Source: Tribonema minus (lineage: Eukaryota > Sar > Xanthophyceae > Tribonematales > Tribonemataceae). From it: 64,000 bases of DNA. Below the pieces are notes generated by a model. The model ran no database searches and was not told where the DNA came from. It saw nothing but the letters and a program-made list of their open reading frames with translations. The stretch lies in assembly GCA_017506865.1 (NCBI GenBank), contig JAFCMP010000128.1, forward strand, positions 1-64,000. Reading direction: 5' to 3'. A program made the position numbers and the translations under genes. Positions 1 through 64,000 of the stretch are shown here, in pieces; position 1 is the stretch's first letter, and every line of letters starts with the position of its first letter.

Positions 1-2
1 AC

Positions 3-4302: not shown

Positions 4303-4343
<41 letters not shown>

Positions 4344-4700: not shown

Positions 4701-4739
4701 TTCAACCCCCCTGGCCCAAATAGTTAATTGGGCCAGGCT

Positions 4740-14961: not shown

Positions 14962-15218
14962 CTAGCGCTGCTGAGCCTTCCTGAGGCGGGGGTCAAGGCG
15001 AGGGTCACGCCTCTGCTTCGGTGCAAGCGGCGGCTGCTGCTGCTGCTGCTGCTCCTGGTACTGCTGCGGTTGTTGTTGCTGCTGTCCAAACTGCTGTTGG
15101 GGCGGCTGCGCCAGATGCGACTGGGAAGGCGCCTGCAGCGGTGGTGGTTGCGAGCCAAACATGTGATCACTGCTTCCATGGCGATGGTACATCCCCGCAT
15201 CAGAGGTTGCCTGTAGCA

Positions 15219-15270
<52 letters not shown>

Positions 15271-16034: not shown

Positions 16035-16090
<56 letters not shown>

Positions 16091-25191: not shown

Positions 25192-28100
25192 TTAGGCCGC
25201 TGCTGCTGGTGGCGCGGAGCGCTGTCGCGGCAATGGTGGCGCTGCTGCTGCTGCTGCTGCTGCCGCTGCTGCTGCTGCTTCAATGACGGCATCGGCCAAA
25301 GGCTGCACGTGAGCGTACACACAAGCACAAGTAAAACGCGTCAGCAAACACACCGGCCTTGGCCTGTGAAAGCTGCTGCGTTCTGAAATGGGATGGCGCG
25401 AAGCAGTCCTGTCGGGTCCAGCATAGCAGGTCAAATTGTAGAGGTAGTCTAGGCACGCAAACCCATAGAGTCCTGCACAACAACGGCGGTCATATATTCC
25501 ACGAGCGAAGCAATACGCTGTCGAGCAGGCTGGCGTTGGTAGCATGCAATCAAGACTATTCCAAGTGTCTTTCCAGCAAATATCTTGTGATCCTTCAAGT
25601 ACATTTCTTCAAGTATAGAAGTATCCGCTAGGCATCCTGCATCAAGTATAGAAGTATCCGCTAGCAAGGCATCCTGCAGCATGGAACACGGCTTCATGTG
25701 TGGCTTACTGCTGGTGCCAATGCACAATCCATGCAGAGAGCTTGGCTTAGGTGGCATGACCTTGAGGTACAGCTGTTTATTCCTTTATCGTATGCATATA
25801 CCTCACACGTACCGTACCTCGTACACCTGCTTGTTGATGCAGACAAACATGACAGCGGACACTGCGGCAATACGCTGTTGACCCACCGCTAAAATCGGCA
25901 GATTAAACACCATGTTCGCTGCAATCTGTACCTCTAATTGGTCAAACTTCTGCAACAACAGCGTGGTCCAGAGTACTTGATTGTAAGCAGCACGAACAAT
26001 CAAAATGTGCTCTGGTCAATTGGATGGGTGTTCAATTTGTCCCTAATTAGAAAGCCATATTCTTTGTGGTGCCAATGTGCGCACGGCACAGTTGCTATGC
26101 GAATAAAAACGATGTCCGTGTCACTGAACTTCATGTACTTGAAGTATGCAGCAATTTACCTGCCACGAGTTGAAGCGCTGGGCTCTCCTGACGAGCGCTG
26201 CTGCACTGCTGTGTGGAAGCGAATGCCCAGCGTCCGCCGCAAGAAAAGTCTCAATGGCGCTCCATATCTGCACGAGCAAGGAAGTTCATGGGAGAAGCAT
26301 GCTTTGAGCCATCGCCCCTGCTTGAGCACCAGGACAATGCATGCCTATGCAACACACAGCCAAGGCTGGTGTGAAAGTGGCGGTACTGTCAGCAGTTGTC
26401 GTCAGCCCAGTGAGCTGACGCATGTTGCAAATGACTGATGTAGTAGAGCTGCCTCTGCGGCTACAGGCGCGCAGCTGATGGTGTCCATACACACGCAACA
26501 TGATGTTGCTCTACACAGTGCTCTGCTGAGCATCATCAGCAGCCTCCGTGAGTCCCCTGTGCCTGTCTCAAAGTAAACCAGCCAGCGTCATGCCCCGCAT
26601 GATGGCGAGACACGTGCACCTGCGGTGACGTAAGTACAATCCCGAGCTACACATTGCTGCGCTACCAATCTCGACAGCAAGCAAACGTCAGCTGAGCCAG
26701 TGCTGGCATAGTGACAAATGACACATGTGCACACTACCAGCTGTTGTGGCTTGAAAAGGTGAGCTGTTGAGAATCCCACAATCGTACTGCAAAAAAGTTT
26801 GTTATGTGCACTTGTTCGTGCAGCTTGGGCAGTCCTCGTCGCCACTTCTGTCTGCAGCAGAGTGCCCAAGGTAGTACTGCTGCAACCGTGTTGTCAATAT
26901 GGTCCCAAAAAGTGTGGAGGGAGTGAGTACTGCCACCTCTGCTTGGCTTCTTGAAGACTTTGATTGCCAGCACAGCATAACGCGTCATAATCCACAACAC
27001 CCTGCATATGCCACCACGCATAATCTTGGCCAACACATGCTTGCATGCACGGCAAGCCCGGGCGCCCACCAGAGTCTGTCAAATAGCCCTGCAAAAAGTT
27101 GCTGCACTGCTTCAACTTCACGTTGATGCCGGCAAAGCAAGTGATGCCGTCACGACAGGCTTGCTCACATGAGCCGTTGCTCTGACCGCCAGGGAATTTC
27201 TAGCACTCAGAGCGTGTCTGATGCCAAAGGCACGTAGCCGTGCTTCAACCGATGGCATGCAACAAGTTCACAAAACTATTTATATGTCAGAGTGGTACAA
27301 CTTTGCGTGGGCAGCCGTTGTGAAAAAAACATGTCAGCAGCGCACTCACATGTGCCGCTGAGCCGGGTTGCTGCACTAGCAGCACGCCACCACCCAGGGC
27401 CTGTCTGACGCCAGCGCTCGCATCGCCGTCGCCGCCATCAGACGGCAGCGGCGGCGCGCCCACTATCTCTTGCACGGGCGGTATGTCGGACGCCACGACC
27501 GGGCAGCCGCACTGCTCAGGCAGCAGCGAGCAGCGGAGTGTCACCGTCAGCACTAGTCAATGTGTTGCTTCAAGTATCAGGGTTGTCTGTCATCTTTAAC
27601 AGGCGACACTCTACCAGTGTCGGGCAGCACCAGCAGCGCGCCTCCAGCATACTGCGCCCTCAAGACCATGCTGCAGGGGGCTCTGGGCAAAATGCTTTGA
27701 GTGTGTCGCAGTGCTCTTGTGGCCATGTGCATAAGCGCTGTCAAAACGAGCAGGCTGAGAGCTCACGGGGCTAGATGAGGTTGCTTGTGCCGCATTTTCA
27801 ACACTAGCAATAGCGGCAGGCTGCGAGATGTGATGGAGAGGTTGTGTGCATTGATTACATTGAGTCATATGCCAAGGCAGCAAAAGGGAGTTAGCTTGCT
27901 TGAATCCCCCAGGCCTGGCGGTGAATGTCACAGTAGGTGTTCTAGTGCGGCCTTACTCTTCCAAAAGGCAGCAGGCACTAACGCAGGCAGGTCTATGATG
28001 AGCTGGGTTGCAAGGAAGGTGGTCAGGAGAGTGACTGCAACACCTGCTCGCACGCAAACTGATGAGCTGGCCTCGAAAACGAAGTGCAGCTGTGCGAGAT

Positions 28101-31100
28101 CGGCCTGTGCGTCAGAGGCAAATGGGTACTGTACCCACGTCTGATGCTGTTTCCCACACACATGATGCTGAGAGACAATGCATGTGTACAACAGTATTTT
28201 GAAGCTTTCGTCAGTATGCTGCAGCTGATGCCGCCCCGTTTGACTTGATTGCCGCTAAAGTCATGAGGCTATGAAAGCAATCAATGCAGTCGATATTGGT
28301 ATGCGTAGACGCCCGGAATGCACATGCCACATGTATGCGAACCGCTGCTACGCGACCCCACACCCGGCAAGCCCATCAGACCCCACCGGACAAGCACAAC
28401 GCACTGCAAACTGTCACTATGACTGTCTGCTGACTCTCTGCAGCCATGCACATGCGCTGCGCCGACGGCACCATCTTCCGCAACACCGAACTCAAGTCTC
28501 ACCACAAGCCAACCACTCTTACCCTGACTCTGACCCCAACCCAAGACTTACCACAAGCCTACCACACTCACCCTAACTCTGGCCCTAACCCTAACCCTGC
28601 AAGCTCCCGCCATCGCCTCCAGCACCCCAAATTCCTCGCTACCATATAACCGAAAGCCTGACCCTAACCCTAACCCTAATCCTAGGAGCTCACCGCCATC
28701 GCCTCCAGCACCGTCAGCCCGAACCCCTCCGCGAGCGCCATGTGCACGTGCGCAGCGGCGCCGCTGTAGAGCGCTGCCAGCTCCCCATCGCTCAGCCCTG
28801 CCACATGTACAAAAGGCACATGCAGCAGCGCTCCACTCCTCTCCGCGGCGTCGGGCGTGTGCCCCCCCGCTAGCACCAGCACCACGTCTTGGTCGCCGCT
28901 ACCAACGCATGTGTCACTGGCATCGAGTTCAGCATCGCCATCAGAATTGCCGCCGCTGCCGCAGCTGTCGCCGCTGCCGCTGCCGCCGCCGCCGCCGCCG
29001 CCGCAGCCCAAATCATCAAGGCTGCTGCTCCCGGTGCCATCGCCGCAGCGCCCGTTAACCCTAGCAGTAGGTTTAGAGCCATTAACCCTAGCACTAGGGT
29101 TAGAGGCACCGTGGCGCAGCGCCGCCGCCACCGCCGCCGCGTTTTTGTAGCCCAGCCTGTATCCCACAACGAGCACATATTGCGCGCATGCGGGTATGCC
29201 GAGACGCTCGCGTGCGGCTGCTATTTCGTCGTCGGATCGGCGGCGGAACACGCTTGTGTCGATGGCGTTGTGCGCTGCGAACACGGGCGCGCGCGCGGCG
29301 ACTGCGGGATAGAACTGCGCAAACTCGGTGGCCGTTGCCTGCGCACGAGGCAGAAATGAGGTGGGTATTGGGGTGAGGATTGAGGTTTGAAGTTCTGAGT
29401 TCAATGACAATCAAGGTCAAAGAGGTTTAAGACCAGGTTCCATGGCCTGTTTGAAGGATCAATCAAGGTCAGGGTTCGCAGCTTGTTTGTGAGGCAGGGC
29501 TGGGACAGGCAGACAGTGCTCAGCACTTGTCCATTGCGGCATGGCAGCGTGCCGATTCGCATGTGACGCGATGCTGCATCGCAATGTACCAGCAGCAGCG
29601 CCAATACAGCACCCAGGCTCAGGTACGCCATTCCATTCGTTTTGCTTGTCCATGAGGTATACCTGCCTAACCCTAACCCTCACACCTGCCTAACCCTAAC
29701 CCTAAGGCTGTCCACCAGTGGAGTGGGATGGGCGGCAAGATCCTGTGCAGTGACTTGCAGTTGTGAAGCAGCGCCGTCAATTACTTCTTCCTTCACGCTA
29801 AAAACAACAGGACATACATGAACTTCAGCATCACAAATTGTGGTATTGTGCCCGACTGCCAGGTATGACAGCTGCTGCGGTGTGAGCAAAACTCATGTTC
29901 TGCTGTTATGTGCGTTCATCCACTCATGTATTGTATATAAAGAGCCCGCACTTGCAGCACTACTGGCTCAAAAATTGTAAGAAGTGACTTGTAATGGTAC
30001 ACCTGCAAACAATGCACAAATCATACAGAAGTGACCCAGTGTCTTCAACAATAAGCAGGGCTGTCCTGCAAAGTTGTAGCTGACAAGCGCTCGCAATTGC
30101 CCAACCCTACTTACTGGCGCAGTGTCACATTCCATACAGTATGTGCGGGTGCGCCTTTGTTTTCAACATGACTAGGGCTGTCTGCTGTGAAATCTAAGTT
30201 CATCGAGCGCTAGCCCTCCCTCTGTATAATCCTAGTTACTGACACATTGTTTCAGCGCAACCGATGCGAGCATTTCATGCGCACGTCCATGATTCCCATA
30301 CAAGCAGGACTGCAAGCTGCAATCGTACTCAGCAATGAGCTAGCCCTTGTCTAACCCTAGTTGCTGACGTGCTGTCTCACCGCGCTGACAGTGGCGATAG
30401 CACCGGCAGCCTCTATTGCATCCTGCCTGCCAGGCCATGGCGGTTCGTCCATGTCCCAGCGAAACCGCTCCGGGATGACATCGTGCAGCAGAAAAATCTG
30501 CAGCGGAGGCAGAAACAGCGGGACCTTTCTTCACACAAGTTGCGTGACGTTTGCATGTGCCTTGGGACGATCTGTTGTCAGCATCAGCGAACACGCGGCG
30601 AACACACGCAGAGTGTTCATTTGTTGGCCTGCACTTGCAAAGATCCACAAACCAAGCCTTGAATACAGACACGCTTGCATTGCGGTGAGCCAATACCCGC
30701 GGTATTTAGTGCATGTTACACTTAAGCCGGTCTGCAACACCGCGCGTCTAGTCTGGTGTTTGTTGCACTTCGATGTGAAGACAGTGTGGCGCAGCGCATG
30801 CATGCGCAAGTTGAAGTTCTTGACGTCTTCTTTGCAATGTGTTCAGGCACTTCTCGCGCAAGTTACTGCCGCAACAACGCTCAGCACTTGATGCTCATCA
30901 TTGCCAAACTCACCGTTTTCACACCGGGATCTGCATACTCCCCAGGCGACGTGTGCATGGTGGATACAAATGTCAGCTGCTCGCCAAATGTCCCCCTGTG
31001 TCCCCCTGCCGCCCCCCAAATTTCCCCAACGCGCCTGAGCGCTGCTGCAAGCATGATCTGATCGCTGCTGTGACCGTACTGCTCGTGGCGTGGCGGCACT

Positions 31101-32851
31101 GCAACAATGGAGACCTTTCTTCGAGACCCAGAAGAGCGTTCTGGGAATGGTCCTGGCAGGGAACTGTTGGCAGAACGTTCTTGGGAAAACACGTTGACAA
31201 TGACTGGCGGCAGCGCGCCGGCACTTGCGCCAGTTGCGCCTCGGTGGAGCAGGGTGACACAGTGGCCATCCAGCTCAGCGAATCTGCAACACAGATAGAT
31301 GCACATGAGCAGGGGGGCGCGGGATCACACTGATGCTGGCAGAGACTGTGTCCTTTGTGATTCATGTGCGTTGTTGCAGTGTGGTGACATCTTAGCCATG
31401 CTATGTGCGTCAAAGGATTCACAAGTGCGAAAGGGAGAAAATATTACATTCAATTTGTAGAGATTAACGTACTGCAATGTCTATGTCACTGTGCACGCAG
31501 CATGGCTTCTGGTGCCTGCGCAAGAGGCCAGGAATGACTGAATGCCACGCCCTTTGAGCATAGGCATAACGCAGCTGCGGCTGACCACAAAACCAGTGAG
31601 TGCATGATGCGGCTCACCATGACACGGTGCCATGCATAGACCTCTGAGCGCCACAAGAATGGAATTGTTTTCAGAGCATACACATCCCAACAGACGAAGC
31701 CCCATGACTACTTCAAATTGAAGTAGTTTGTAGTATTCGCATCTCTGACACTATTGACAGCAATTGAGGAACGGCAGAGCGCTGTTAGTGGCAGCAGGGG
31801 GGCTGCCGGTGTATGTGTGATAAGGTGCAAACGGCACTGTTGAGTGCTTGGCGCTTAACGTCGAGTTGCAGCCTCGCGCACCTGTGTACGATTGCCGGCA
31901 GTACGCCCTCCCAAACGCGTGCGATGCCCCTGTGCTTCGACTGCAGAAACAATTCGGCGGTCAGCGGCGGGTCAGTGCTGAAGCTGATGCACAACAGGCT
32001 GATGCAGTTCGCAGTTTTTACTTTTTTTTTGGCGCCGCAAGCGAGAATTGCCAAAAAGTACTTGCCAAGGATTCGCAACCTGAAGAAAGAAGGACCAGGA
32101 AGTGGCTGTGCTTCCAGGCAAAAGCGCGCGCGGTGGCTGTGCTATACATGGACATGTTATCGCTTGAAGTTTGAAGACGTTTGTCAAATGCGAGTTGCGT
32201 GAACGCCCACTTCATGCATCAGTATTGCACACGTCAAAGCTGCTCTTGCGTCAATCGGGGTTAGCGCTGTTGCCCAATTGAGTTAACCCTAACACTAATC
32301 CTAAGCACAGTGCTGTTGCCACCTTCCTTTCACTGGTGCGCACGAATGGAAACGCACTACAACGGATCTTCAGCGGGCCTCGGTGCTACATTGCCGCTGC
32401 ATCGCCGAAGCAACTTCATAACAATGGATGCCATGGGCAAGACTGACAACACTGCGCTGCAGCAAAACTGCATCGAAAATACAAGTCGTGCTGTACTACT
32501 ACACCAACTGTGAAGGCTCACTTTAGCCTGGAACACCATGCCATCCACCACCAGATGTAGCTTGCCGCACGGACTCCCCCCTTGAAGTTCCCCTTGAACT
32601 TGAACTTCATCTTGAACTTGAAGTTTGCCTTCACCCCCCCCCACCACGCCCCCGCCTTCGTCCACGTGTGCCACAGTCAAGGGGTCCCAGGGGGGCGGTA
32701 GGGGGACAGGGGGCACCCCTGCACCAATTGCGCTGTGCGAAGCGGTGTCGACTATGGTGGCGTGAAGTCGGGGCTCCGCTGTGGGTGCGTTGAGCCAGGA
32801 GAAGTGGTCGCTGAGACGCGTAGGGAGCGCTGCTGCCTGCAGGGAGTGCCA
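25192..32851 (-). CDS. Giant gene module 6: GT4 glycosyltransferase
   Basis: Exons 32851-32522, 31940-31882, 31283-30914, 30497-30381, 29338-28694, 27511-27350 and 25302-25192. The N-terminal Rossmann half has LHLVVDGMVFQ, HRGIARVWEGVLPAI, CVTLLHRGATG, TFVSTMHTSP and IFLLHDVIPERF. The C-terminal half has VFAAHNAIDTSVFRR, YVLVVGYRLGYKNAA, VVLVLAGG, LSDGELAALYSGAAAHVHM and AEGFGLTVLEAMACGCPVVA. The E-x7-E signature of retaining GT4 enzymes (E-GFGLTVL-E) is intact and is followed, across a splice, by CGCPVVASD. A Gly/Ser/Asp insertion of about 70 residues sits between strands in exon 29338-28694. The last exon is short and Ala-rich, so the end of the fold may be incomplete or degenerate. Confidence 0.82.
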
Positions 32852-56800: not shown

Positions 56801-59800
56801 ATCACTCATCACCTCCACCGATGGCGCACCTGGCATCACTCGCTCCGACAGAATCAGAATGTTGGCACGCGGTGAGCTTGACCGGTTGGTGCCAGCGCTC
56901 CTCGCACACGCGCGTGCGCACCGGCGCTGGCGCGCGCGCCAGCAAACGGAGGCAGCGATCAACGCCTACGTCCTACAGTGCATGGGCACACGGGGGGGGC
57001 TACAGCAGGCAGCGCGTTTCCTTCAGCCCAAAACGGTGGCGATACCTGATGATGACTGCTTTGCCGCCATGCAGTCCAAACACCCCCCCGCTGCGCCAGG
57101 GGAACAACTCCATGAGCTATCCGGCATGGTTGATCAGCTTGTGGCGAAAGCAGCCGACATGCCAGCAGAACTCAGCCTGTTACAGGGGGAGGGAATTGAG
57201 CCAGAGACGGTTGCCAAGCTCATCCAGCGAGCAAGCCCTTACAGTGGAGCAGGCCCATCGGGGCTGCGCTACAGCCACCTGCAGGATGCGCTACGCACAA
57301 GCTGGGGACGGCATGAGTTTGCTGCTGTCCTCACACGGTGGCTTCAGACCGTTATGCGGGAGGCTGCGCGGCTGCCGGATGCCTTCTGGCAGTTGCATGG
57401 CGCGGGGCGCCTGACGCCACTTGCAGAACAACAGGAAGATGGTACAGCTAAGCAGCGGCCCATCGTTTGCGGCGAGGTGCTGCAGCGACTATGCACTTCG
57501 GTGTACGTGGCAGACCGCAAAGACTTCCTGGCGGAGCTCCTTGAGCCAGACGGGCAGTATGGGGTAGCCGTCTCAGCAGGAGCGGAGAAAGCGGCCATGG
57601 CCGGCAAACTCGCGTATGAGCTCGGTCACTGGCAGTTCATGCTGGACCTCAAGAATGCCTTCAACATGGTGTTCGTCCTGGCGGCAGCGGAATGGGTAGC
57701 AGCACAGCTGCCGGACTTCTTCGACTACTTCATCGGCACATACGTTCGCACTCGGCCACGCCTGCTGTTCCAGCACGTTGACGGCTCCACGCGCATCATC
57801 ATGTCTCAGCGCGGGTTTAAGCAGGGGGACCCCGCGGCACCGATGCTCTTCTGCGGCGCCATTGCTCAGTGCTTGAAACGGTTCAATGAGGCGGCGGCTG
57901 CGCAGCGCGCGCGGAGGCGGATGGGCGCCTACATGGACGATGCCAACGTCCGAACAGGCGCTTGCACGCTGACTCAGGATGACATACAGGCGGTGGCGCA
58001 GCTCAAACAACACTTTGCGGAGGTGGGGCTGGAGCTAAACCTCACCAAGTCACGCGCGCTGCCTGGCAGGGGGCATGTGGTGACAGACCACGAGCGGCAA
58101 CTGCTGCAGCAGCTGGGCGTTCAGCTAGTGGGGGATACGGATGAAAATCAGAACCGTGGAGCTGTGTTGCTGGGGGTGCCGGTGGGCCACAGCAGCTTTG
58201 TGGACGCATGGCTGCGCAGGGAAGCGGGTGCAGGCGGGGCAGGGGCTCGATTTGCAGAGCGATGCGCGCGCCTGACATCTCCGAGGGCTATGTTCAGGTT
58301 ACTGCGCTACTGCGTGGTGCCTCGCATGACGTACTGCCTGCGCACCATTCCCACTACGCAGACAGCGCCAGCCGCCAAGGAGTGGGATCGGGTCACGCAG
58401 TGGGTGCTTGAGCACTCAATGGGCCTGCAGCCACCAGGCCAGACCTGGCGCCAGTTTGAGCAAAGTGGGGCCCACTTCCATCTGGCAGCGCACGGCCCAG
58501 CCTTACAGCAAGCGCGACTCCCAACACGGCATGGCGGCCTTGGCATTACCAGCGCCTGCGACATCGCTGATGCTGCGTATGTGGCGGGCACGTTGCAAGC
58601 GCTGCAACCAGCACTCTCTGGATGGGCGGGGGTGCTGCAGCAGGCGGCTCCTCAAGCGGCTGCAGACAACGCTGCTGAGGATGCGGCAACACAAGAGGCA
58701 CCGGCAGCAGCGGCAGCAGCACCAGCACCAGCAGCATCAGCAGCGGCAACTGTTACAGCGGCAGCGGCGGTTGCCAGTGGAGGCGCGACCGCTCCGGCAG
58801 CGGCAACTGCATCAGCGGCTGGCCGCGCTTATGGCGCAGCCATTCCGGCAACACACGACGCAGCTGCCGCTGGATCAGGGGCCGCGGCGGCAGCACAGGC
58901 GGCACCAGCGGCAGCAGCAGCAGCGGCGGCGCACGGCGCAACTACTCCGGCGGCAGCAGCAGCGGCGGCAGCAGCAGCTGCTCCAGCATCAGAGGCTGCT
59001 GCAGCAGCGGCAGCACATGTTGCACCTCAAGTGGCCTCGGCGGCATCACTAACTGCAGCATCAACAGCAGCGGCTGCGGGCATAGGCAATACAGCTGCTA
59101 CAGGCCCTACTAGCCTAAGGGCTGCTGCAGCACCTGCAACAGGAGCAGCGTCGGCAGGCGGCGCCGCAACCGTGCCGGCTGCGACAGCGGCAATGGCGGT
59201 GGCAGCGGCCAATGCGGCAGGTGCTGCACCAACACCTGCGGCAGCAGCAACACCACTGGCAGCAGCAGCAACGGCAGGCGGCACAGCTGCAGCACCAGCG
59301 CACGCAGCAGCGGCAGCCGTCAATGCAGGCGCTGCGCGTTCCACACCAGCAATGCTACAAGGCGCAGCAGCAGCAGAGGTGGCGCGCCTGCCCCTCATGC
59401 GGACGATCGCCACAGCTGCCACATCTCTACGTGCAGCAACAGGTGACAAGCTGGAACATATACTGCCACCAGCGCTAACGCCACTGCAGCAGCAACCACC
59501 TACGCAGCAGCCGCCGCTGCGGCCGACAGCAGGTGGTGGCACTGGTGCGGATGCTGCTTGCGTACTTGACGCCAGTGCTCTGCAGTTGCAGTGTAGCCTG
59601 AAGCGCCCCAATCAGAGTGCGCTTGCAGATGCCGTCGCTACCGAGCTTGCAGATAAGGTGGAGGCGGACCTGCAACAGCTGCCGCAGGGCACGCAACGCA
59701 CGCAAGCACTTGCTCGATTCCGGTCGCAGCGCCACATGCACTCGATCGGCATGGCATTCCTCAACGAGCCCATGTACTCCACAACGGCTTCGTTCGATGG

Positions 59801-62737
59801 CCTATCCTGGCAGCTGGCCGTCAAACGCGCCATCGGAGTAGAGGAGCAGACGGCAGGCTGCAAGCTGTGCGGGAAGTCGCCGGGCGGCACCCTGCATGCA
59901 CGGCTGTGTCAAGCGCCACGCGTCAAGGCGCACGACACCATTGTCCACAATAGCGTCAAGAGGGCCACGCAGCGCCTCCTGCGGCAATACCTCAAAACGG
60001 GACTGGTGGACGAGGACTACACGCCGTTTCTGGGGTCCGCCGGGCCGCCGGGGAGTCGCAGGATGGACATCGTGCTGCCTGCCGACGCCTTCCCGGTGAC
60101 CGGCTACGACGACCCGACACGCCACCTACCGCTCATGGTGGACGTTACCTGCTTCGAGGCACAGGTGGCGTCGCGGGCGGCGAAGACTGCAGCAGACCCC
60201 GAGCGATGCTGCCGCGACCAAGAGGCCGCCAAGACTACCCACTATTCTGGTCATTATGATCAGAATTGCTACAAACTTGCCACATTGGCAATAGGGTCAT
60301 TTGGCAGCATCGGGGAGCAGGGGCGGAAGCTGCTGGAGGCTGTGGCGACGGAGTATGCCAGCAGGATGTCAGTGCCCGGAGGAGCGCGCCCTAAAGCTCT
60401 CAAGGGCATCGCCCTGGCGCGCTTACGCTCGGCACTGTCGGCAGCGCTCCACATGGCGTACTCTGGCCGTGTCATGACACACATGGCAGAATCCAGGGGG
60501 GGGGGGGAGGAGGACGTAGGGGAGGACCCCGAGATGCCATTTGGCGGCGGCGGCGTTTGAGTGGTTGTCGTTGCGACACTTTCAGACTGTCATACGACAT
60601 GTAGATTCCTTACAGCTAGATGCCAATCATCTGGGCTTTTTCGCGCCCTGAGCGAGAATTAATATAAAGTACATGTAGAATTGCACGTGATGCGACCGTA
60701 CACGGCTCTGACACAGGCGAACGCGAGCGGGAGGCAGCTCTGAGCAGCAGACACCCAAGGACAGCAAAGTGTTTTCAAAAGGCAGCATTGTGATCCAACT
60801 GTGCATGTCGCAGAGCCTTGAGGTGACAGCGCCCAGCAGCCTTGAAGCACGCACAACAAACACCCAACAGCACGCATGTACCTGCTCTCGTCTGGCGGCC
60901 CTGCGCACGGCCGCCGCGCCAAGTTCAAGTTCAAGTCGATCGGCCACCCACACAGCGGCCGCGCGCCCCTGGGCCAGCTTCCCCTCGTCCCCCCCCCCCT
61001 CCTGTGCGCCATCCGGGGGGTCAACTAGGCCTGCAGGGGGTTCACGCCTCACGTGCCCGGATTCGATGATGATGGCTGGTAGCGCGGTGGGGTGCATTGC
61101 GGTGGATGCAGGGGGGAGGGGGAGGTGGAGTTGGCGGCGCACGAAGGCGGCGGCGGCGGCGGCGATGCTGCGGCGGCATTCAAGGAAGCAGGATAATGAA
61201 GAGCGGCGAGCAGCGTGATGTCATGAGTGATGGATGATGGATGGAGGATATGTATACTTGTGGCTGATTGAGCATTACTTGGGAGATTATTGCATCATTT
61301 GCGAATCAGTGGCGATGCATGCTGCCAGCCACCAACGGACACATGACACCTACATGACCCCACGACTGTCCCCTGTGTCCCCCTGACGTGTGACAGTCCA
61401 CATTTCGTTCCTGGCCAAACCCCAGCTTTGATTTCATCTTTTGAGGTGACTCTCCCCTCCGCCATTTATGCAGCAGCACAGCCAGCCACCAGCGCGCCAT
61501 ACGATATCATATGCACTACAAGCAGCAGCTGCAGCGCTCGGTGCCACCCAAACCCTAACCCTGGCCTTGCACCTGTCGTCGTGATCCAACCCTCCGGATG
61601 CCAGCCACACTATGCCATCTAGCTGCGTCCCGTTCAACAATAGGAGTACCCAACGCCGCTTGTCTTATATTATAGCATTACCGAAAGTCCTGCCTCCAAT
61701 CCCCCCCCTTCCTTCCTCCGAACTCCCCACCGGTAGCGTGCCCACAAGAGCACTCATCTTATTGTCAATTTCTTTCTCACCTCTCCCCCTGGTGCAGTAC
61801 CAGAGGCAGCTCCACAGTGCCATCCGCGGCCGTCTGCACCAGAACCGACAGCTGCAGTGCGCGGCGCCGCCGCCGCCGCCGCCACGGCCGCAGGTCCTCT
61901 GGGCACACCCTACAGAGACTTGAACTTGAAGTTGGCGACGCGAGCAGTCCCCCGAGGGCACTTTCTAGAGATCTGTCAGAGCCATCGCTGCAGGTGTAAC
62001 CGCCTGAAGAAGAAGTTGGGGGGGGAGGGGCGCGAGATTCGCAGCGTGCACTTAATGTGAGCTCTCCTGTGCAGTGAGATTTGAAGCGTGCACCAAATGT
62101 GAGCTCTGTTGTGCAGTGACCGCCTGAAGTTGACGTTGGGGGGGGGGCGGGCGAGGTTCGCAGCGTGCACCGAATATGAGCGCTCCTGCGCAGTGCTTTC
62201 AGATAAGAAGCTCTGTGAACAGCGAGTGCACGTCGCTTGAAGTAGCAGAGCTGTACACGCTGAGTAGCCAAGGCGCTTTGTAATGTCTGAAACCCCATCT
62301 TTCACACAGGTGCCGCACCTCACAGCGACGATGACATGTGCTGATGCTATGTCAGACGGCATCGTGTAGGACAAATGAGTTCGACGCGACTTTCTCTGCC
62401 GCTCTTGTAAGTATGGCCTGCTATCCCTTCCTTGAAGAAAACCAACAGTACTGTGGCTGCTTTAGCAGGCGCAATTCAGATTTCTGCATACTCACCTCGA
62501 CCTCCATGCGCAAGGGTAAAGTTGAGCGCTGCCGCCGCCACCACCGCCCCCCCATCCATCCCCACGCTCAGCACCCTCAGCGTGTGCTCGCCGCCACACA
62601 GCCCCAGCAGTTGCAGCGACTGCCTCCGCGCCTGCTGCGTGTCTGCCGCCTTAACATCAGTGCTCAGTAAGCGCGGAGCTCGCAGCCACAGCCGCAGCGC
62701 GCCCGCGTCGACGTCTACAAACAGGTCCGGGGCTCTC

Positions 62738-62770
<33 letters not shown>

Positions 62771-63465
62771 TGGCTGTCGGCAGTGCTTGCTGAGCGCTGC
62801 AATGCGTGGAGCGTCACAACCGGAGGAGCGTCGCCATCGCCTGCACTAACTTCAAGTTCCAGCTGCTCTGGCGCTTCTCCAATCACACCTGCCGCTGCCG
62901 CCGCAGTTGCTGCTGGTACTGAGGCGCCCGCAGGCGTGAGCGCCAGAGACCTGCACCTCGTCCCTTGCGTGCTCCCTGGAAGCGCAGTGGTGCATGGGCG
63001 CCATGCGCTGCTGCCGCCGCCACTGCTGCTGCTGCCGCTGCTACTGCTCCTGCGTCCGCCGCTGCCGCTGCCAGCGTTGTGCATGCTCCCCCAGCGCCAC
63101 ACTGGCGTGACCGCAGCGTACGCGGCTGCTATGGCCGCGACAGCCGCAACAACGACCGCGGTCCTGCGCAGCAGCAGCGCAGCAGCAGCGCCGCTGCCGC
63201 CACAGCCCGCGCCGCCCTTCGTGCCCCCCTTTGCGATAGGGCCCACGCCTTTATCACCACCACCGTGAGCACTGCAGCTGCTGCCTCCAGCGGCAGTATC
63301 GCCGTCGCCGCCGTTCGCAGTGCTGCTGCGGTGTCGCAGGCCAGGCGGCGCTGCTGGCTGCGCGGCGCTCGCTTTTGCGGCCACGGGCGACGAGAATCGA
63401 ACGGCATGTGGCGTCCATTTACGCTGAGGCACGCCCTCCTGCACACTCTGCTGCTTCTCCTGCTG

Positions 63466-63498
<33 letters not shown>

Positions 63499-63993
63499 AT
63501 CAGGTGCCGCTACGCCAGGCGGCACTGCCTGTAACTGGTCCGGCGCCACTGCTGATGCGGAGCGCGTGCTGGCAGACTTTGCTTGTTTTTTCTGCCGCTT
63601 GGTCCGCTGTGGCACATCGCCGTTGGCGGTAGAGCCATCATGCGATGCTGCCAGCGCGCCGTCTACTTTATCACAGGCTGAAGTGTCTGGCGCGGCAGTG
63701 GCATTCTGCTGCTGCTGCTGCCGTGGCTGCTCGTCTGTTTCCTTCTGCTCTTGTTCTGGCAGTGAATTCAGCTTCGGAATCTGGGGCGCAGGCTGCGGCG
63801 GCACGCTGTGCTGCTGCGCTTGCTGCTCCTGCTGACGCTGGTGCTGTTGACGCTGCTGATGCTGCTGATGCTGCTGATGCTGCGGCTGCTGCTGCTGGTG
63901 CTGCTGCTGCGGCGGCTGTACTGTACCACCGTCGCTTGCGATCAACGACGTGTCGTTGCTGCAATCGGCGGTGGAGCTCGACTGCGATGGCAC
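25192..63993 (-). CDS. Giant multidomain membrane protein: methyltransferase + TPR + GT2-like + GT4 glycosyltransferase (5' partial)
   Basis: Twenty-six minus-strand exons join with every splice in phase to 2446 codons plus stop: 63993-62496, 61898-61781, 61167-60882, 54830-54700, 54297-54044, 53614-53036, 52144-51980, 51735-51435, 50882-50722, 50240-49721, 40860-40701, 40472-40366, 39227-39142, 38604-38453, 37964-37759, 37042-36558, 36118-36026, 35113-34956, 33289-33203, 32851-32522, 31940-31882, 31283-30914, 30497-30381, 29338-28694, 27511-27350 and 25302-25192. The first exon is open to the right edge without an ATG, so the start lies outside. One transmembrane anchor near the N-terminus followed by enzyme domains predicts a type II Golgi protein modifying glycans in the lumen (inference). 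The weakest points are the start of exon 15 (37964) and the last exon. Introns 3 and 10 hold full-length LINEs. It could be two or more genes, but continuous phase and conserved motifs spanning splice sites argue against that. Confidence 0.75.
25303..27349. other. Last intron of the giant gene
   Basis: A 2-kb stretch without recognisable exons or elements. If the last exon is wrong, the true C-terminal GT4 exon could be hidden here. Confidence 0.4.
28583..28686. repeat. Interstitial telomere-like repeats (CCCTAA)n
   Basis: Runs of 2-4 units (28583-28599 and 28661-28686) lie in intron, immediately left of the GT4 exon boundary at 28694. Confidence 0.8.
29667..29706. repeat. Interstitial telomere-like repeat pair
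   Basis: Two copies of gcctaaccctaaccct separated by cacacct, in intron. Confidence 0.8.
33203..37964 (-). CDS. Giant gene module 5: GT2-like glycosyltransferase
   Basis: Exons 37964-37759, 37042-36558, 36118-36026, 35113-34956 and 33289-33203 form one enzyme domain, and every junction restores a conserved motif. In order: PFIAYHLPVFDEL, WWQWHVVEGVA, GLSVDGT/SEYLDWA, WRDKLQMANAALFAM, a Ser/Gly insertion, CLVLQIDADELWTAEQL (the DxD metal/nucleotide-sugar site), YFNCHFFIGPDRVTVTP, GYGHNAQTEWLRAW, ILGGDMCFSQ/VFTHYAYALPRQVEF and FYGYGG. This matches a GT2-like family known mostly from bacteria. The upstream boundary is uncertain: TLALNAQ just before 37964 also looks coding, so the exon may start near 38056 after an unseen small exon. 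Confidence 0.78.
34314..34345. repeat. Interstitial telomere-like repeat, about five CCCTAA units
   Basis: The longest pure run in the window, taaccctaaccctaaccctaa and more, in intron. Confidence 0.85.
34726..35345. repeat. Cluster of short tandem repeats around exon 35113-34956
   Basis: These include actacacccctgacta-aggggtcaa units (34800-34870), gccaga-aggggtc units (34871-34910), three units of about 21 bp tgtggcagcga-caacac (35115-35190) and two units of about 60 bp with gattgaggcgt-catg (35225-35340). Confidence 0.65.
35585..35846. repeat. Tandem duplication, two units of about 130 bp with mini-exon-like cores
   Basis: Both units contain cttccaggcagcgcaac, a short core and cccaggtaag, i.e. 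an acceptor-like and donor-like pair on the plus strand, and both end in cagcgcctgactgatg. They lie in the giant gene intron between exons 36118-36026 and 35113-34956, antisense to it. Confidence 0.75.
38148..38193. repeat. Perfect 22-bp hairpin with 2-nt loop
   Basis: The arms taacatgtggctgcagggtcgc and its exact reverse complement flank a gt loop in the intron between exons 38604-38453 and 37964-37759. Perfect palindromes of this length are uncommon. Confidence 0.85.
38453..40472 (-). CDS. Giant gene exons 12-14: second beta-rich domain
   Basis: Exons 40472-40366, 39227-39142 and 38604-38453 join in phase (0, 2, 1, 0). They read RPALLLDIPSVHFGWLRTHS, then WLAGGRVVPGEMEAPHC...AQLAGLPE, then GEYTLSVAAFALPG...GATVTFCV. 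The pattern (LDI..., then G-E-[HY]-T-L-x-V, then a terminal F-x-[VL] strand) repeats that of exon 1 (FVDVDAGALRLWL, GGEHTLRVLS, LNFTL). A beta-sandwich accessory domain, perhaps carbohydrate-binding, is inferred. Confidence 0.6.
38870..38890. repeat. Interstitial telomere-like repeat in the opposite orientation (TTAGGG)
   Basis: The run ttagggttagggttaggg lies in intron, inverted relative to the other runs in the window. Confidence 0.8.
40701..40860 (-). CDS. Giant gene exon 11: further TPR unit
   Basis: The exon joins in phase to exon 50240-49721 across the 8.9-kb intron holding LINE copy 1. It encodes PVAELLLRIGQVVEEEGQLC followed by AAMRMYQRTLLVTASHAGAL, a good 34-residue TPR-like unit. 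Acceptor cgtgcag, donor agg/gtaagt. Confidence 0.65.
40806..41200. repeat. Three tandem copies of an exon 5' edge plus intron
   Basis: Units at about 40806-40900, 40951-41037 and 41105-41200 share gcagcagctc-gcgac-gggcccgcc-cggcatgcg and end in gagatgagag. The leftmost contains the acceptor half of exon 40860-40701; the other two are decayed upstream copies, each still coding-like on the minus strand (AAAGPVAELLL). Confidence 0.8.
41210..42214. other. Intron of the giant gene, nothing else seen
   Basis: Part of intron 10. No exon, RNA gene or element end is recognised. A degenerate telomere-like run (ccctgaccctgaccctagccctaaa) lies near 42030. Confidence 0.45.
42228..47735 (+). mobile_element. 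Family A LINE copy 1 (full length, intact ORF)
   Basis: A non-LTR retrotransposon with restriction-like endonuclease. It is bounded by a perfect 13-bp target-site duplication, agtacacaactgc, at 42215-42227 and 47736-47748. Sequence shared with copy 2 runs from 42238 to the A-rich 3' end (taataaa). Ten extra bases (42228-42237) lie between the left duplication and the shared 5' end. The 5' UTR is about 50 bp and the 3' UTR about 105 bp. The element lies in intron 10 of the giant gene in antisense orientation. Confidence 0.92.
42289..47628 (+). CDS. LINE family A polyprotein: zinc fingers, reverse transcriptase, restriction-like endonuclease (copy 1)
   Basis: One 1779-aa ORF. The N-terminus has a C2H2 finger (Cys127, Cys130, His150, His155), a CxxC...CxxC cluster (Cys185, Cys188, Cys211, Cys214) and an RGG/Ser-rich stretch. 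The reverse transcriptase covers about residues 660-1000: GPSGLRYSHLQDAL, LDLKNAFN (motif A, about 805), RGFKQGDPAAP (motif B, about 865) and YMDD (motif C, about 902). After LPTRHGGLG comes an Ala-rich linker of about 300 residues. The end holds a C-X2-C-X8-H-X3-C knuckle (about 1544) and a PD-(D/E)XK-like endonuclease core (RRMDIVLP ... LMVDVTCFEA, about 1608-1640). This layout fits the R2/NeSL/CRE-type elements that carry out target-primed reverse transcription. All RT catalytic residues are present, so it may be active. The exact clade needs a tree. Confidence 0.93.
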   Translation: MKRISWRRREARIANSESAQKCKESDLACAQAQDISTSAADGNGACQQDDGTSGSSRATGDGRAAHKRKRVQNDGWSISDQTGEGEHTGGQSAVKRSRTGHNSLEQQPLMLDDEAGGGGSADPEYKCNLCDLVVKKGMSLLSLQQRLNAHIAAKHQRKHHSGTATTFLERSDLSTSHLQTIYTECALCKNLFHANKTFRVDSSDASAGKHCRKCRPITSPAAVAATLSTTASAAPLAPDASTATATTSLPQQQPACTPIGNPYAKGPAHAQQAPAAQAGGSSSSGSSKRPERGGSSATRGGRGRSGGRGRGNGGRVRSGSNDADISSSRATSGSRTGGGSSSGAGGGSAAGTKDSGAGNGRSSDASSRSGGASNSGSGARTQNGRGGRGSGRSSDSGGRGCGRGGRGGGGGGPRAAGAATAAAAPGPAGAAGGAGGLFTWTISTPAVAAVLDSISLDELCKLQFATTRSLARPRNRRYVGAALENAATHLLAHTMTMFVNAAREPDSAGRVQRLQRSTILHHLMPSLITSTDGAPGITRSDRIRMLARGELDRLVPALLAHARAHRRWRARQQTEAAINAYVLQCMGTRGGLQQAARFLQPKTVAIPDDDCFAAMQSKHPPAAPGEQLHELSGMVDQLVAKAADMPAELSLLQGEGIEPETVAKLIQRASPYSGAGPSGLRYSHLQDALRTSWGRHEFAAVLTRWLQTVMREAARLPDAFWQLHGAGRLTPLAEQQEDGTAKQRPIVCGEVLQRLCTSVYVADRKDFLAELLEPDGQYGVAVSAGAEKAAMAGKLAYELGHWQFMLDLKNAFNMVFVLAAAEWVAAQLPDFLDYFIGTYVRTRPRLLFQHVDGSTRIIMSQRGFKQGDPAAPMLFCGAIAQCLKRFNEAAAAQRARRRMGAYMDDANVRTGACTLTQDDIQAVAQLKQHFAEVGLELNLTKSRALPGRGHVVTDHERQLLQQLGVQLVGDTDENQNRGAVLLGVPVGHSSFVDAWLRREAGAGGAGARFAERCARLTSPRAMFRLLRYCVVPRMTYCLRTIPTTQTAPAAKEWDRVTQWVLEHSMGLQPPGQTWRQFEQSGAHFHLAAHGPALQQARLPTRHGGLGITSACDIADAAYVAGTLQALQPALSGWAGVLQQAAPQAAADNAAEDAATQAAPAAAAAAPAPAASAAATVTAAAAVASGGATAPAAATASAAGRAYGAAIPATHDAAAAGSGAAAAAQAAPAAAAAAAAHGATTPAAAAAAAAAAAPASEAAAAAAAHVAPQVASAASLTAASTAAAAGIGNTAATGPTSLRAAAAPATGAASAGGAATVPAATAAMAVAAANAAGAAPTPAAAATPLAAAATAGGTAAAPAHAAAAAVNSGAARSTPAMLQGAAAAEVARLPLMQTIATAATSLRAATGDKLEHILPPALTPLQQQPPTQQPPLRPTAGGGTGADAACVLDASALQLQCSLKRPNQSALADAVATELADKVEADLQQLPQGTQRTQALARFRSQRHMHSIGMAFLNEPMYSTTASFDGLSWQLAVKRAIGVEEQTAGCKLCGKSPGGTLHARLCQAPRVKAHDTIVHNSVKRATQRLLRQYLKTGLVDEDYTPFLGSAGPPGSRRMDIVLPADAFPVTGYDDPTRHLPLMVDVTCFEAQVASRAAKTAADPERCCRDQEAAKTTHYSGHYDQNCYKLATLAIGSFGSIGEQGRKLLEAVATEYASRMSVPGGARPKALKGIALARLRSALSAALHMAYSGRVMTHMAESRGGGHMEEDVGEDPEMPFGGGGV
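47782..48180 (+). CDS. Doubtful 132-aa ORF in intron
   Basis: An ATG-started plus-strand ORF just downstream of LINE copy 1 has fairly even amino-acid use (for example HTVDRLLEHARKRTSARHV) and no repeats. It is antisense to the giant gene, has no recognised domain and may be a remnant of another mobile element. Confidence 0.2.
   Translation: MALMVARVHQAARGWEMLAVSRSCGVACGEDTALGSSRGYWNMGIRIASGHTVDRLLEHARKRTSARHVSGVLRQGIEDRAPLAQMYTRGITAVLRRFRSRDGDIGYDRCGSDWVPLCLPPMSLVQACNAGL
48341..48413 (-). tRNA. trnA-AGC: tRNA-Ala (anticodon AGC), intronic, possibly pseudo or SINE head
   Basis: The minus strand folds into a 73-nt cloverleaf with acceptor GGGGTCT/AGACTCC, D arm GCTC/GAGC, anticodon loop TTAGCAT (AGC) and T arm GGGGG-TTCGATT-CCCTC. 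The acceptor carries the G3-U70 pair that defines alanine tRNAs. A-box and B-box sequences are intact, and a T5 Pol III terminator follows a few bases downstream. Oddities are a C29-A41 mismatch in the anticodon stem and U rather than A at discriminator position 73. It lies inside intron 10 of the giant gene, on the same strand. It may be functional, a pseudogene or the head of a tRNA-derived SINE. Confidence 0.8.
49721..50882 (-). CDS. Giant gene module 3: TPR-like helical repeats
   Basis: Exon 50882-50722 ends with EEWREEGRQALLRNDANA, and exon 50240-49721 continues ALSLCGRVLAHRPADMGALL, a helix-turn-helix pair with TPR-like spacing (small residues at A, G and A positions, Pro before the next unit). 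A long Ala/Gly insertion follows, then KDPRLELMQLLRGLEAVGQA. TPRs mediate protein contacts and often accompany glycosyltransferases in bacteria and in O-GlcNAc transferase. Individual repeats are divergent, so the TPR label is moderate. Confidence 0.55.
51435..52144 (-). CDS. Giant gene exons 7-8: linker
   Basis: Exon 52144-51980 (acceptor catgcag; donor ccag/gtgcgt) encodes a Ser/Ala/Val-rich stretch. Exon 51735-51435 (acceptor tgcgcag; donor gac/gtgagt) contains QPKWRFALDPAMDGWGEVSE and then an Ala-rich tail ending VNDGSEE. Phase is continuous. No named domain; the tryptophan-rich piece may be a short conserved unit. Confidence 0.6.
52924..53130. repeat. Tandem duplication of the 3' edge of the methyltransferase exon
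   Basis: Two units of about 100 bp (about 53042-53130 and 52924-53030) share ttcacgcagtccaccac and cctgcaat-acccc. The first includes the end and donor of exon 53614-53036; the second is a decayed downstream copy that still keeps a donor-like sequence. Confidence 0.7.
53036..54830 (-). CDS. Giant gene module 2: SAM-dependent methyltransferase
   Basis: Three exons (54830-54700, 54297-54044, 53614-53036) encode a class I methyltransferase of the type-11/12-like group. The GxG-like first strand and acidic loop read VRVMLG...LAGWVSTDINVLDLT. The post-I helix and motif are AEHVWEHLSAEEA, then LRAGGRLRIAVPDPNFN. Next come DGHRIQYTLPALAALCVSAGF and SIVVDCVK, the usual strand and helix order of bacterial predicted methyltransferases of this type. 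A Gly/Ser/Ala insertion of about 60 residues splits the last third. Substrate unknown; with two glycosyltransferases in the same chain, a sugar O-methyltransferase is a reasonable guess. Confidence 0.78.
54799..55110. repeat. Tandem duplication of a methyltransferase exon 5' edge plus intron
   Basis: Segment 54799-54931 (exon 54830-54700 start, its acceptor and intron) is repeated at about 54996-55110. Shared blocks are gggcg-ccctgcag, gcgacgccacctgc, attgg and catcagcgctcatcagag. The upstream copy still has an acceptor and would read VASQQLQGRP. Confidence 0.75.
55161..60666 (+). mobile_element. Family A LINE copy 2 (full length, intact ORF)
   Basis: Bounded by a perfect 12-bp target-site duplication, aagtacatgtag, at 55149-55160 and 60667-60678. 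Sequence shared with copy 1 starts at 55176, after 15 extra bases (55161-55175) unrelated to the extra bases of copy 1. It lies in intron 3 of the giant gene, antisense. Different flanks and different duplications show that it inserted independently rather than by segmental duplication. Confidence 0.92.
55227..60560 (+). CDS. LINE family A polyprotein (copy 2)
   Basis: A 1777-aa ORF that differs from copy 1 by only about seven amino-acid substitutions and a two-residue deletion near the C-terminus (HM, next to a G9 run); I count roughly a dozen nucleotide substitutions over 5.4 kb. All zinc-finger, RT (LDLKNAFN, QGDP, YMDD) and endonuclease residues are conserved. The differences include QQP/QQR near 108, Tyr/Cys at 182 and Leu/Phe in the RT. 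Both copies therefore look very young and potentially active. Confidence 0.93.
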   Translation: MKRISWRRREARIANSESAQKCKESDLACAQAQDISTSAADGNGACQQDDGTSGSSRATGDGRAAHKRKRVQNDGWSISDQTGEGEHTGGQSAVKRSRTGHNSLEQQRLMLDDEAGGGGSADPEYKCNLCDLVVKKGMSLLSLQQRLNAHIAAKHQRKHHSGTATTFLERSDLSTSHLQTICTECALCKNLFHANKTFRVDSSDASAGKHCRKCRPITSPAAVAATLSTTASAAPLAPDASTATATTSLPQQQPACTPIGNPYAKGPAHAQQAPAAQAGGSSSSGSSKRPERGGSSATRGGRGRSGGRGRGNGGRVRSGSNDADISSSRATSGSRTGGGSSSGAGGESAAGTKDSGAGNGRSSDASSRSGGASNSGSGARTQNGRGGRGSGRSSDSGGRGCGRGGRGGGGGGPRAAGAATAAAAPGPAGAAGGAGGLFTWTISTPAVAAVLDSISLDELCKLQFATTRSLARPRNRRYVGAALENAATHLLAHTMTMFVNAAREPDSAGRVQRLQRSTILHHLMPSLITSTDGAPGITRSDRIRMLARGELDRLVPALLAHARAHRRWRARQQTEAAINAYVLQCMGTRGGLQQAARFLQPKTVAIPDDDCFAAMQSKHPPAAPGEQLHELSGMVDQLVAKAADMPAELSLLQGEGIEPETVAKLIQRASPYSGAGPSGLRYSHLQDALRTSWGRHEFAAVLTRWLQTVMREAARLPDAFWQLHGAGRLTPLAEQQEDGTAKQRPIVCGEVLQRLCTSVYVADRKDFLAELLEPDGQYGVAVSAGAEKAAMAGKLAYELGHWQFMLDLKNAFNMVFVLAAAEWVAAQLPDFFDYFIGTYVRTRPRLLFQHVDGSTRIIMSQRGFKQGDPAAPMLFCGAIAQCLKRFNEAAAAQRARRRMGAYMDDANVRTGACTLTQDDIQAVAQLKQHFAEVGLELNLTKSRALPGRGHVVTDHERQLLQQLGVQLVGDTDENQNRGAVLLGVPVGHSSFVDAWLRREAGAGGAGARFAERCARLTSPRAMFRLLRYCVVPRMTYCLRTIPTTQTAPAAKEWDRVTQWVLEHSMGLQPPGQTWRQFEQSGAHFHLAAHGPALQQARLPTRHGGLGITSACDIADAAYVAGTLQALQPALSGWAGVLQQAAPQAAADNAAEDAATQEAPAAAAAAPAPAASAAATVTAAAAVASGGATAPAAATASAAGRAYGAAIPATHDAAAAGSGAAAAAQAAPAAAAAAAAHGATTPAAAAAAAAAAAPASEAAAAAAAHVAPQVASAASLTAASTAAAAGIGNTAATGPTSLRAAAAPATGAASAGGAATVPAATAAMAVAAANAAGAAPTPAAAATPLAAAATAGGTAAAPAHAAAAAVNAGAARSTPAMLQGAAAAEVARLPLMRTIATAATSLRAATGDKLEHILPPALTPLQQQPPTQQPPLRPTAGGGTGADAACVLDASALQLQCSLKRPNQSALADAVATELADKVEADLQQLPQGTQRTQALARFRSQRHMHSIGMAFLNEPMYSTTASFDGLSWQLAVKRAIGVEEQTAGCKLCGKSPGGTLHARLCQAPRVKAHDTIVHNSVKRATQRLLRQYLKTGLVDEDYTPFLGSAGPPGSRRMDIVLPADAFPVTGYDDPTRHLPLMVDVTCFEAQVASRAAKTAADPERCCRDQEAAKTTHYSGHYDQNCYKLATLAIGSFGSIGEQGRKLLEAVATEYASRMSVPGGARPKALKGIALARLRSALSAALHMAYSGRVMTHMAESRGGGEEDVGEDPEMPFGGGGV
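60882..61898 (-). CDS. Giant gene exons 2-3: linker before methyltransferase
   Basis: Exon 61898-61781 (acceptor tgcccag) reads EDLRPW, an Arg run and LQLSVLVQTAADGTVELPL. Exon 61167-60882 (acceptor gccgcag, donor gcag/gtacat) reads SIAAAAAAFVRRQLHLPLPP... VWVADRLELELGAAAVRR. Phases 1, 2 and 0 fit the flanking exons. No domain is named. The Ala and Arg runs arise from GCC and CGG repeats. Confidence 0.6.
62496..63993 (-). CDS. Giant gene module 1: Gln-rich tail, membrane anchor, beta-rich domain
   Basis: This is the first exon within the window (phase-1 donor cgag/gtgagt). It encodes about 270 residues of Gln-rich, partly basic sequence (QRTKRQKKQAK), then a hydrophobic anchor of about 22 residues following RR (TAVVVAAVAAIAAAYAAV, about 63110-63175). 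A Ser/Gly stem follows, and then a beta-rich unit with LFVDVDAGALRLWL and GGEHTLRVLSVG...LNFTLAHG. That unit resembles the second one at 38453-40472. Topology rules (positive side before the anchor, long C-terminal part) favour an N-in, C-lumenal protein. The polyGln parts come from CAG repeats. Confidence 0.7.
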
Positions 63994-64000
63994 GTTCTCT

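Follow-up and report, generated by a model that had tools for sequence, protein, structure and literature searches.

A predicted minus-strand gene in the alga Tribonema minus combining a methyltransferase with a bacterial-type GT2-like/GT4 unit

Eukaryotic Golgi polymerases such as LARGE1, EXT1/2 and the chondroitin synthases carry two glycosyltransferase (GT) domains on one membrane-anchored chain; they belong to GT families other than those described below and are not known to contain a methyltransferase. Two rhamnosyltransferases and an O-methyltransferase are combined in A064R of chlorovirus PBCV-1, a protein of 638 amino acids (aa) that builds and methylates the end of a glycan; that account lists A064R among predicted soluble proteins and assigns its second GT to a new family (PMC9614988). 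A 2020 review states that to its authors' knowledge no microalgal glycan-methylating enzyme had been characterised and that the role of methylation was unknown (PMC7773692). Here, a 64,000-nucleotide (nt) stretch of Tribonema minus DNA, referred to as the window (bases 1-64000 of the 200 kb contig C128 within the 158 Mb assembly), was analysed for a long minus-strand gene predicted earlier from the letters of the DNA. We favour, at a probability of about 55%, one nuclear algal gene for a glycan-assembly enzyme of ~2,400-2,600 residues that would build and O-methylate a glycan. Compared by description, the proposed enzyme resembles A064R in that a methyltransferase shares its chain with two sugar transferases, but the methyltransferase is last in the far smaller A064R and first in the window model. 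By analogy with this nearest tested parallel found, the window enzyme most likely works like A064R. A search of the open-licence literature retrieved no description of the window architecture.

Exons were sought on the minus strand with a purpose-written spliced protein-to-DNA aligner, a splice-site model whose weights were assumed, and a codon model trained on 9205 codons; these came from kinase and methyltransferase matches of the same genome, 58 of 60 being used and two excluded. The resulting chain has 27 GT-AG exons from 64410 to 25192 and 2568 codons in phase with a single terminal stop, 64410 being an arbitrary point within an open frame that begins at 64431. The sequence-only reading had counted 26 exons and 2446 codons; that minus-strand GT-AG exons can join in phase was confirmed, and from 63993 the 27-exon model gives 2429 codons. 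That position, formerly taken as the start, is only the edge of the window, and no convincing start codon was found. Homology from the GT2-like/GT4 and methyltransferase alignments supports approximately 13 of the 26 introns, and the N-terminal, tetratricopeptide repeat (TPR)-like and immunoglobulin (Ig)-like exons are based on coding score, splice score and phase (ab initio). The modules lie in order on one strand, and the splicing of the GT2-like/GT4 part and its homology to bacterial single proteins follow directly from the alignments.

All 16 bacterial query proteins, hand-picked for diversity among 61 proteins with both domains close together, aligned to the GT2-like/linker/GT4 stretch at 38.02-27.35 kb with scores of 389-445, as compared to 75-103 on the opposite strand and 86-128 for queries shuffled once. 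Fifteen splice sites were used by every query, and the exons past 27350 by 5-8 of the 16 only. Identity to the Azospirillum protein WP_237908302.1 (P0001, 947 aa) was 40.2% (262/651 residues) across ~11 introns. The exons are given below, with the number of queries using each border.

37759..38050, minus strand: GT2-like exon 1, VDGT end; donor 16/16, alignments begin at 38003-38018, acceptor 38050 ab initio
36558..37042, minus strand: GT2-like exon 2 (SEYLD ... QIDADELW) with S/G-rich insert; acceptor 16/16, donor 36558 9/16 and 36611 7/16
36026..36118, minus strand: GT2-like exon 3 (CAYFNCHFFIGPDR); donor 16/16, acceptor 36118 6/16, picked by splice score and phase
34956..35113, minus strand: GT2-like exon 4, MCFSQ end; acceptor 16/16, donor 10/16
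33923..33946, minus strand: GT2-like 24-nt microexon EETAAHGL; acceptor 15/16, donor 16/16
33203..33289, minus strand: GT2-like exon 6 (VFTHYAYA ... FYGYGG); both borders 16/16
32522..32851, minus strand: linker and GT4 start (LVVDGMVFQAK); acceptor 16/16, donor 13/16
31882..31934, minus strand: GT4 exon (GIARVWEGVLPAI); acceptor 12/16, donor 16/16
30914..31283, minus strand: GT4 exon (RFAELDGHCVTLLHRG ... FVSTMHTSP); acceptor 16/16, donor 10/16
30381..30497, minus strand: GT4 exon (IFLLHDVIPE); both borders 16/16
28694..29338, minus strand: GT4 main exon, EGFGLTVLEAMA end, with internal low-complexity insert; both borders 16/16; Glycos_transf_1
27350..27511, minus strand: GT4 exon CGCPVVASD; acceptor 16/16, donor 27350 8/16
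26160..26267, minus strand: GT4 C-terminal exon (ALVRRAQRFNSWQ); acceptor 5/16, donor 8/16; in phase, negative coding score, less certain
25192..25302, minus strand: last exon with stop TAA; ab initio, in phase, bad coding score of -16.2

Of the three splices said to restore conserved motifs exactly, VDGT/SEYLD and LEAMA/CGCPVV were confirmed. MCFSQ/VFTHYAYA is no direct junction, the microexon 33946-33923 in between having been skipped; its EETAAHGL supplies two residues, E and T, that hardly vary among 60 bacterial sequences. The window GT2-like domain has 41 of the 51 residues invariant in these 60 sequences, including D and T in the DGT motif and all three acidic residues in DADE, and is therefore probably active. 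The GT4 module matched Glycos_transf_1 (PF00534; E 9.5e-17, 61.5 bits versus a cut-off of 26.4), and its translation keeps EGFGLTVLE, which has the E-x7-E motif of GT4 enzymes. In Pfam the GT2-like domain matched neither PF00535 nor any other family above cut-off, the best glycosyltransferase match being PF13704 (E 0.13), and a sequence search of the PDB with the family profile gave no significant match. Four viral relatives were also searched, and one of them (L166) matched Glycos_transf_2 (PF00535) above cut-off (E 8e-8). For a bacterial member, AlphaFold gave a model with a mean pLDDT (predicted local distance difference test score) of 90.2, in which the strand-helix order up to the DxDE motif suggests a GT-A-like fold. 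With a GT2-like domain carrying DGT and DxDE, a linker and GT4 in one frame, as assembled from exons, the window stretch is by homology a member of the bacterial GT2-like/GT4 fusion family.

A pattern scan for the GT2-like domain in one genome per bacterial and archaeal species gave 128 relatives, the best 80 of which were read; across these 80 loci the domain alone was 36-45% identical to that of the window. In 60 of the 80 loci the GT2-like domain was followed by GT4 in a single open reading frame (ORF), within 200 residues in 59 of them, and in 46 of these 60 (46 of the 80 loci) a methyltransferase or methyltransferase-like domain was found in front. The front domain was called by BLAST (E<=1e-5) to either N-terminal domain of the Fischerella protein L126, i.e. 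a Pfam-confirmed FkbM methyltransferase, present in 13 of the 46 proteins, or a 'LEIGSSxGxGST ... LIDGSEFTG' domain. The latter had no Pfam match in the two proteins scanned (L104 and L126), and its motif looks like that of a methyltransferase. Bacteria thus commonly place a methyltransferase-type domain, the GT2-like domain and GT4 in this order; the design occurs in cyanobacteria, Azospirillum, Roseomonas relatives and others. The supposed novelty of the order is contradicted by these counts. As anticipated, all three catalytic modules are related to bacterial proteins.

The bacterial fusions (Azospirillum P0001, Fischerella L126, and those of Roseomonas, Nostoc and Calothrix) share with the window a GT2-like domain that is followed by the linker and then by GT4. 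They carry the FkbM or 'LEIGSSxGxGST' domain in front, whereas in the window model a methyltransferase of another family lies upstream, separated from GT2-GT4 by TPR-like and Ig-like segments; these segments, the introns and the N-terminal tail are foreign to the bacterial GT2-GT4 unit. What sets the algal form apart is thus the family of its methyltransferase, its introns and its spacers of TPR-like and Ig-like segments. The window methyltransferase family was matched in 4 of 39 genomes (E<=1e-8), these being the genomes of 39 of the 80 GT2-like loci, and in 6 of 292 cyanobacterial genomes (E<=1e-12), the phylum of the Nostoc genome G018, which is in both sets. All frames were of 580 aa or less, and neither set yielded a frame over 580 aa with this family or a fusion of it to GT2-GT4.

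In viral contigs, single-protein scans with the GT2-like domain and the methyltransferase found none; these early empty scans reflect a limit of the method, because alignment queries later found many relatives. The pattern scan gave 273 viral GT2-like relatives, and in none of the best 80, which were kept, did BLAST detect GT4 or the window methyltransferase in the same ORF. These viral relatives (L158-L237) either stand alone (median frame 272 aa) or have an N-terminal extension, and a PHROGs scan of two of them gave no match. Together with the places in bacterial genomes, the viral ones point to a large unnamed family to which the GT2-like domain would belong.

The methyltransferase stretch at ~54.8-53.1 kb was aligned by all five relatives used (from Pseudanabaena, Deinococcus, Azospirillum and two viral contigs) with scores of 95-120; on the opposite strand the scores were 20-27, and ten shuffles per relative reached 41 at most. 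Alignment-based exon borders inside it vary among the relatives, and its splicing is established roughly only.

54700..54830, minus strand: methyltransferase exon 1; donor 54700 used by 5/5 relatives, acceptor 54830 by the Azospirillum relative
54044..54297, minus strand: methyltransferase exon 2 (AEHVWEHLS ... LRIAVPD); aligned 5/5, donor 54044 3/5, acceptor 54297 1/5
53036..53614, minus strand: methyltransferase exon 3, containing a long G/S/A insert and ending in SIVVDCVK; aligned 5/5, acceptor 53614 2/5 and 53674 3/5, donor 53036 ab initio

The small methyltransferases of Pseudanabaena (L074) and Deinococcus (L077) belong to the window family with 37% and 40% identity, respectively, as does the Azospirillum GT61-methyltransferase protein L073 with 40% (all in alignment A2). 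L074 and L077 are stand-alone and L073 is fused to GT61; in the window the methyltransferase is instead found alongside GT2-GT4. The domain of the Azospirillum GT61 protein matched Methyltransf_23 (PF13489; E 5.5e-10; relative P0003, 39.7 bits, cut-off 27), while the Pseudanabaena relative had no Pfam match. Through its homology to the Pfam-scoring relative, the window module is assigned to the class I S-adenosylmethionine methyltransferases.

Upstream of the methyltransferase, three exons form the N-terminal part of the model.

62496..64000 within the window, continuing to 64431, minus strand: exon 1; open frame 64431-62479, donor GTGAGT
61781..61898, minus strand: exon 2; ab initio, best in-phase chain after exon 1
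60882..61167, minus strand: exon 3; ab initio, in phase with the methyltransferase across a 6 kb intron

Exon 1 encodes a Q/S-rich low-complexity tail, one hydrophobic segment and then a stretch that by eye looks Ig-like. The hydrophobic segment (model residues 407-438) is strong by hydropathy. In signal anchors a low-complexity stem typically comes after the hydrophobic segment, and the N-terminal tail probably carries such an anchor, which would place the work site in the Golgi if an upstream start codon exists. Of the membrane anchor proposed earlier, the hydrophobic segment is present; the anchor itself is unproven, the first Met following the segment, as is the Golgi placement, no convincing start codon having been found ahead of the segment.

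Between the methyltransferase and the GT2-like domain the model contains the following exons.

51435..51468, minus strand: short linker exon; ab initio, extent uncertain
50722..50882, minus strand: TPR-like exon a (EEWREEGRQALLRNDANA); in phase with the next exon, no Pfam match
49721..50240, minus strand: TPR-like exon b; ab initio
49446..49580, minus strand: ab initio exon; in phase with 40860 across an 8.6 kb intron
40701..40860, minus strand: TPR-like exon (AELLLRIGQVVEEEGQLCAAMRMYQRTLL); weak designed-TPR match, strong donor GTAAGT
39142..39346 (alternative acceptor 39389), minus strand: Ig-like-looking exon a; picked by eye, absent from the best chains, no Pfam match
38431..38604, minus strand: Ig-like-looking exon b (GEYTLSVAAFALPG...FCVGG); several best chains use acceptor 38604, donor weak, label by eye

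The claim of TPRs is weakly supported by one repeat in the 40701 exon, which matched a designed TPR protein in the PDB (phmmer, E 0.0063, weak), and by reading by eye. The two largest introns are mostly occupied by retroelements resembling long interspersed nuclear elements (LINEs), which make up 11 of the 39 kb.

55176..60673, plus strand: LINE-like retroelement with a 1784-aa ORF; in the intron between exons 3 and 4
42238..47741, plus strand: LINE-like retroelement with a 1786-aa ORF; in the 49446-40860 intron; reverse transcriptase RVT_1, E 2.1e-10

Both are antisense to the gene model. The two insertions are recent, because the copies are nearly identical (99.66% over 5504 nt). By eye, their ORFs have a zinc-finger-like N terminus, and the short repeats flanking them differ between the copies, which therefore look like separate insertions.

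Several points weigh against the model of one chain carrying all these modules. Its joining on a single transcript is read from the genomic sequence, and an ab initio predictor ran into the neighbouring genes (one 50-exon gene) and therefore cannot tell gene ends. The joins 53036-50240, 49446-40860 and 40701-38050 are not secured, as the chain finder scored other chains higher: 3.8 at 53.0-50.2 kb for a chain with two extra exons, 2.3 at 49.4-40.9 kb for chains with exons partly within the LINE, and 4.7 at 40.7-38.0 kb, where our exons were chosen by eye, for a chain omitting the first Ig-like exon. Between the modules the exon model is not unique, the joins there being ab initio and partly picked by eye, and the Ig-like labels were likewise assigned by eye. 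The last two exons (26160..26267 and 25192..25302) score badly. In the Pfam search of the modules, which had been suggested as a check, GT4 was significant, but the methyltransferase domain alone gave no significant match, nor did the GT2-like domain alone (which also had none in NCBIfam or PHROGs), and the TPR pieces gave 0 families at E<=1 for two and one unrelated match for the third. In the N-terminal part, no in-frame Met occurs before residue 443, which follows the hydrophobic segment; the coding score is negative over most of the tail preceding that segment; and a search for upstream start codons gave no convincing start exon, the best one (68020-67838) requiring a 4.4 kb intron and a weak acceptor. 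For one chain speak the stop-free in-phase frame of 27 exons, the N-terminal exons that join the methyltransferase in phase and the direct in-phase join from 49446 to 40860 across the LINE-bearing intron, and the bacterial methyltransferase-type/GT2-like/GT4 proteins provide a precedent.

A rival reading has two genes on the same strand, the one with the tail, methyltransferase and TPR-like part (64.4 to ~40.7 kb) and the other with the Ig-like, GT2-like and GT4 parts (~39.4-25.2 kb), in which case the fusion would only be the GT2-GT4 unit known from bacteria. The direct join of the TPR-like exon 40701 to the GT2-like exon 38050 is out of phase, the two bridging exons needed have weak splice sites, and the chain finder chose other exons; segments that look Ig-like by eye precede both halves, and the window methyltransferase family was confined to the short bacterial frames described above. 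Yet the donor of the last TPR-like exon is strong (7.1), as is the acceptor of the first GT2-like exon (5.5), a continuous in-phase chain exists, and bacterial proteins often put a methyltransferase-type domain ahead of GT2-GT4. A single gene across all modules is considered fairly likely on this evidence, and two separate genes a possibility of clearly lower but appreciable weight. One chain might also be soluble, translation starting at the Met that follows the hydrophobic segment or beyond it, with neither anchor nor Golgi location; the position of the first Met just past the segment, the negative coding score and the poor upstream start exon agree with this, but the tail frame is open for 1.9 kb in which the other two frames hold 18 and 17 stops, and the segment with its low-complexity stem resembles a signal anchor. 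We find a soluble enzyme less likely than not. A decayed copy, whether a pseudogene or a gene disrupted when the two LINEs inserted, is improbable: the insertions are nearly identical and hence recent, and some splice sites are weak, but the LINEs are intronic and antisense, the 2568 codons are without an internal stop and the invariant GT2-like residues are largely kept. Bacterial contamination was considered as the assembly does include a bacterial-looking contig (C400); for the window gene it has a negligible probability, being ruled out by the introns, LINEs, low-complexity inserts and eukaryotic context, with an exon of casein kinase II beta nearby in a contig of 200 kb.

One long gene of fused glycan enzymes, as proposed in the sequence-only reading, is still the best single model. 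The encoded protein would consist of the N-terminal tail, the methyltransferase, a TPR-like/Ig-like spacer, a GT-A enzyme (GT2-related) and a GT-B enzyme (GT4). The two sugar transferases form one unit, common to the bacterial fusion proteins. They would act successively on the same acceptor, the glycan being handed between active sites on one chain, and O-methylation by the methyltransferase would then cap or decorate the product. All modules may be on one transcript, and the enzyme may be anchored, located and supplied with substrates as outlined here, with its reactions in that order. More tentatively, the protein can be pictured as a membrane-bound glycan workstation of ~2,500 residues or more, in which two transferases elongate a glycan that the enzyme's own methyltransferase caps. 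Such a workstation would have kept the bacterial-type GT2-GT4 unit and have received a methyltransferase of another family in front, spacers and many introns. If true, it would be a candidate for an enzyme behind algal glycan O-methylation. As modelled, the gene is also an example of a eukaryote carrying a bacterial-type modular enzyme whose modules have been re-assorted. A methyltransferase and two sugar transferases in one gene would provide a directly testable candidate for microalgal glycan methylation.

To address the evolutionary origin of the gene, the window sequence was placed in a midpoint-rooted tree together with 61 bacterial rows. It formed a very long branch outside the bacterial groups and beside another long branch. 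In an approximately unbiased (AU) test with 32 of the 61 bacterial rows, and five low-complexity stretches of the window sequence removed, neither a cyanobacterial (p 0.257) nor an alphaproteobacterial grouping (p 0.462) was rejected. The suggested acquisition from bacteria is thus not supported as stated. No second copy or allele of the gene was found among the best candidates scored, as all 18 matches at E<=1e-3 fall in the same contig.

The host is an alga, as had been proposed, in view of the 92 light-harvesting-protein matches in its assembly. Two light-harvesting fragments were compared to the PDB. One best matched fucoxanthin chlorophyll a/c proteins, which we take to be diatom proteins; the other matched Euglena polyproteins first, with scores raised by repeats, and then ACPI and CAC proteins, presumably of cryptophytes. 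By these matches the host is probably a chlorophyll a/c-type alga. A six-frame search of the host genome (G000) gave no match to Copper-bind (plastocyanin). In view of this result and the two fragments, a green-algal host was rejected. The neighbouring exon at 21158-21601 on the plus strand, from a eukaryotic gene, encodes a casein kinase II regulatory subunit (PF01214, E 2e-11), and a Q/P-rich open frame of 642 aa at 14962-16890 on the minus strand had no Pfam match at E<=1e-3. Contig C400 (16 kb; positions 1-10000 examined, L070) carries intron-free, bacterial-looking surface-polysaccharide genes and is likely contamination. Elsewhere in the assembly, kinase and methyltransferase matches recur in contig pairs (e.g. 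C90/C179, C144/C223 and C109/C282), as if two haplotypes were in part assembled separately.

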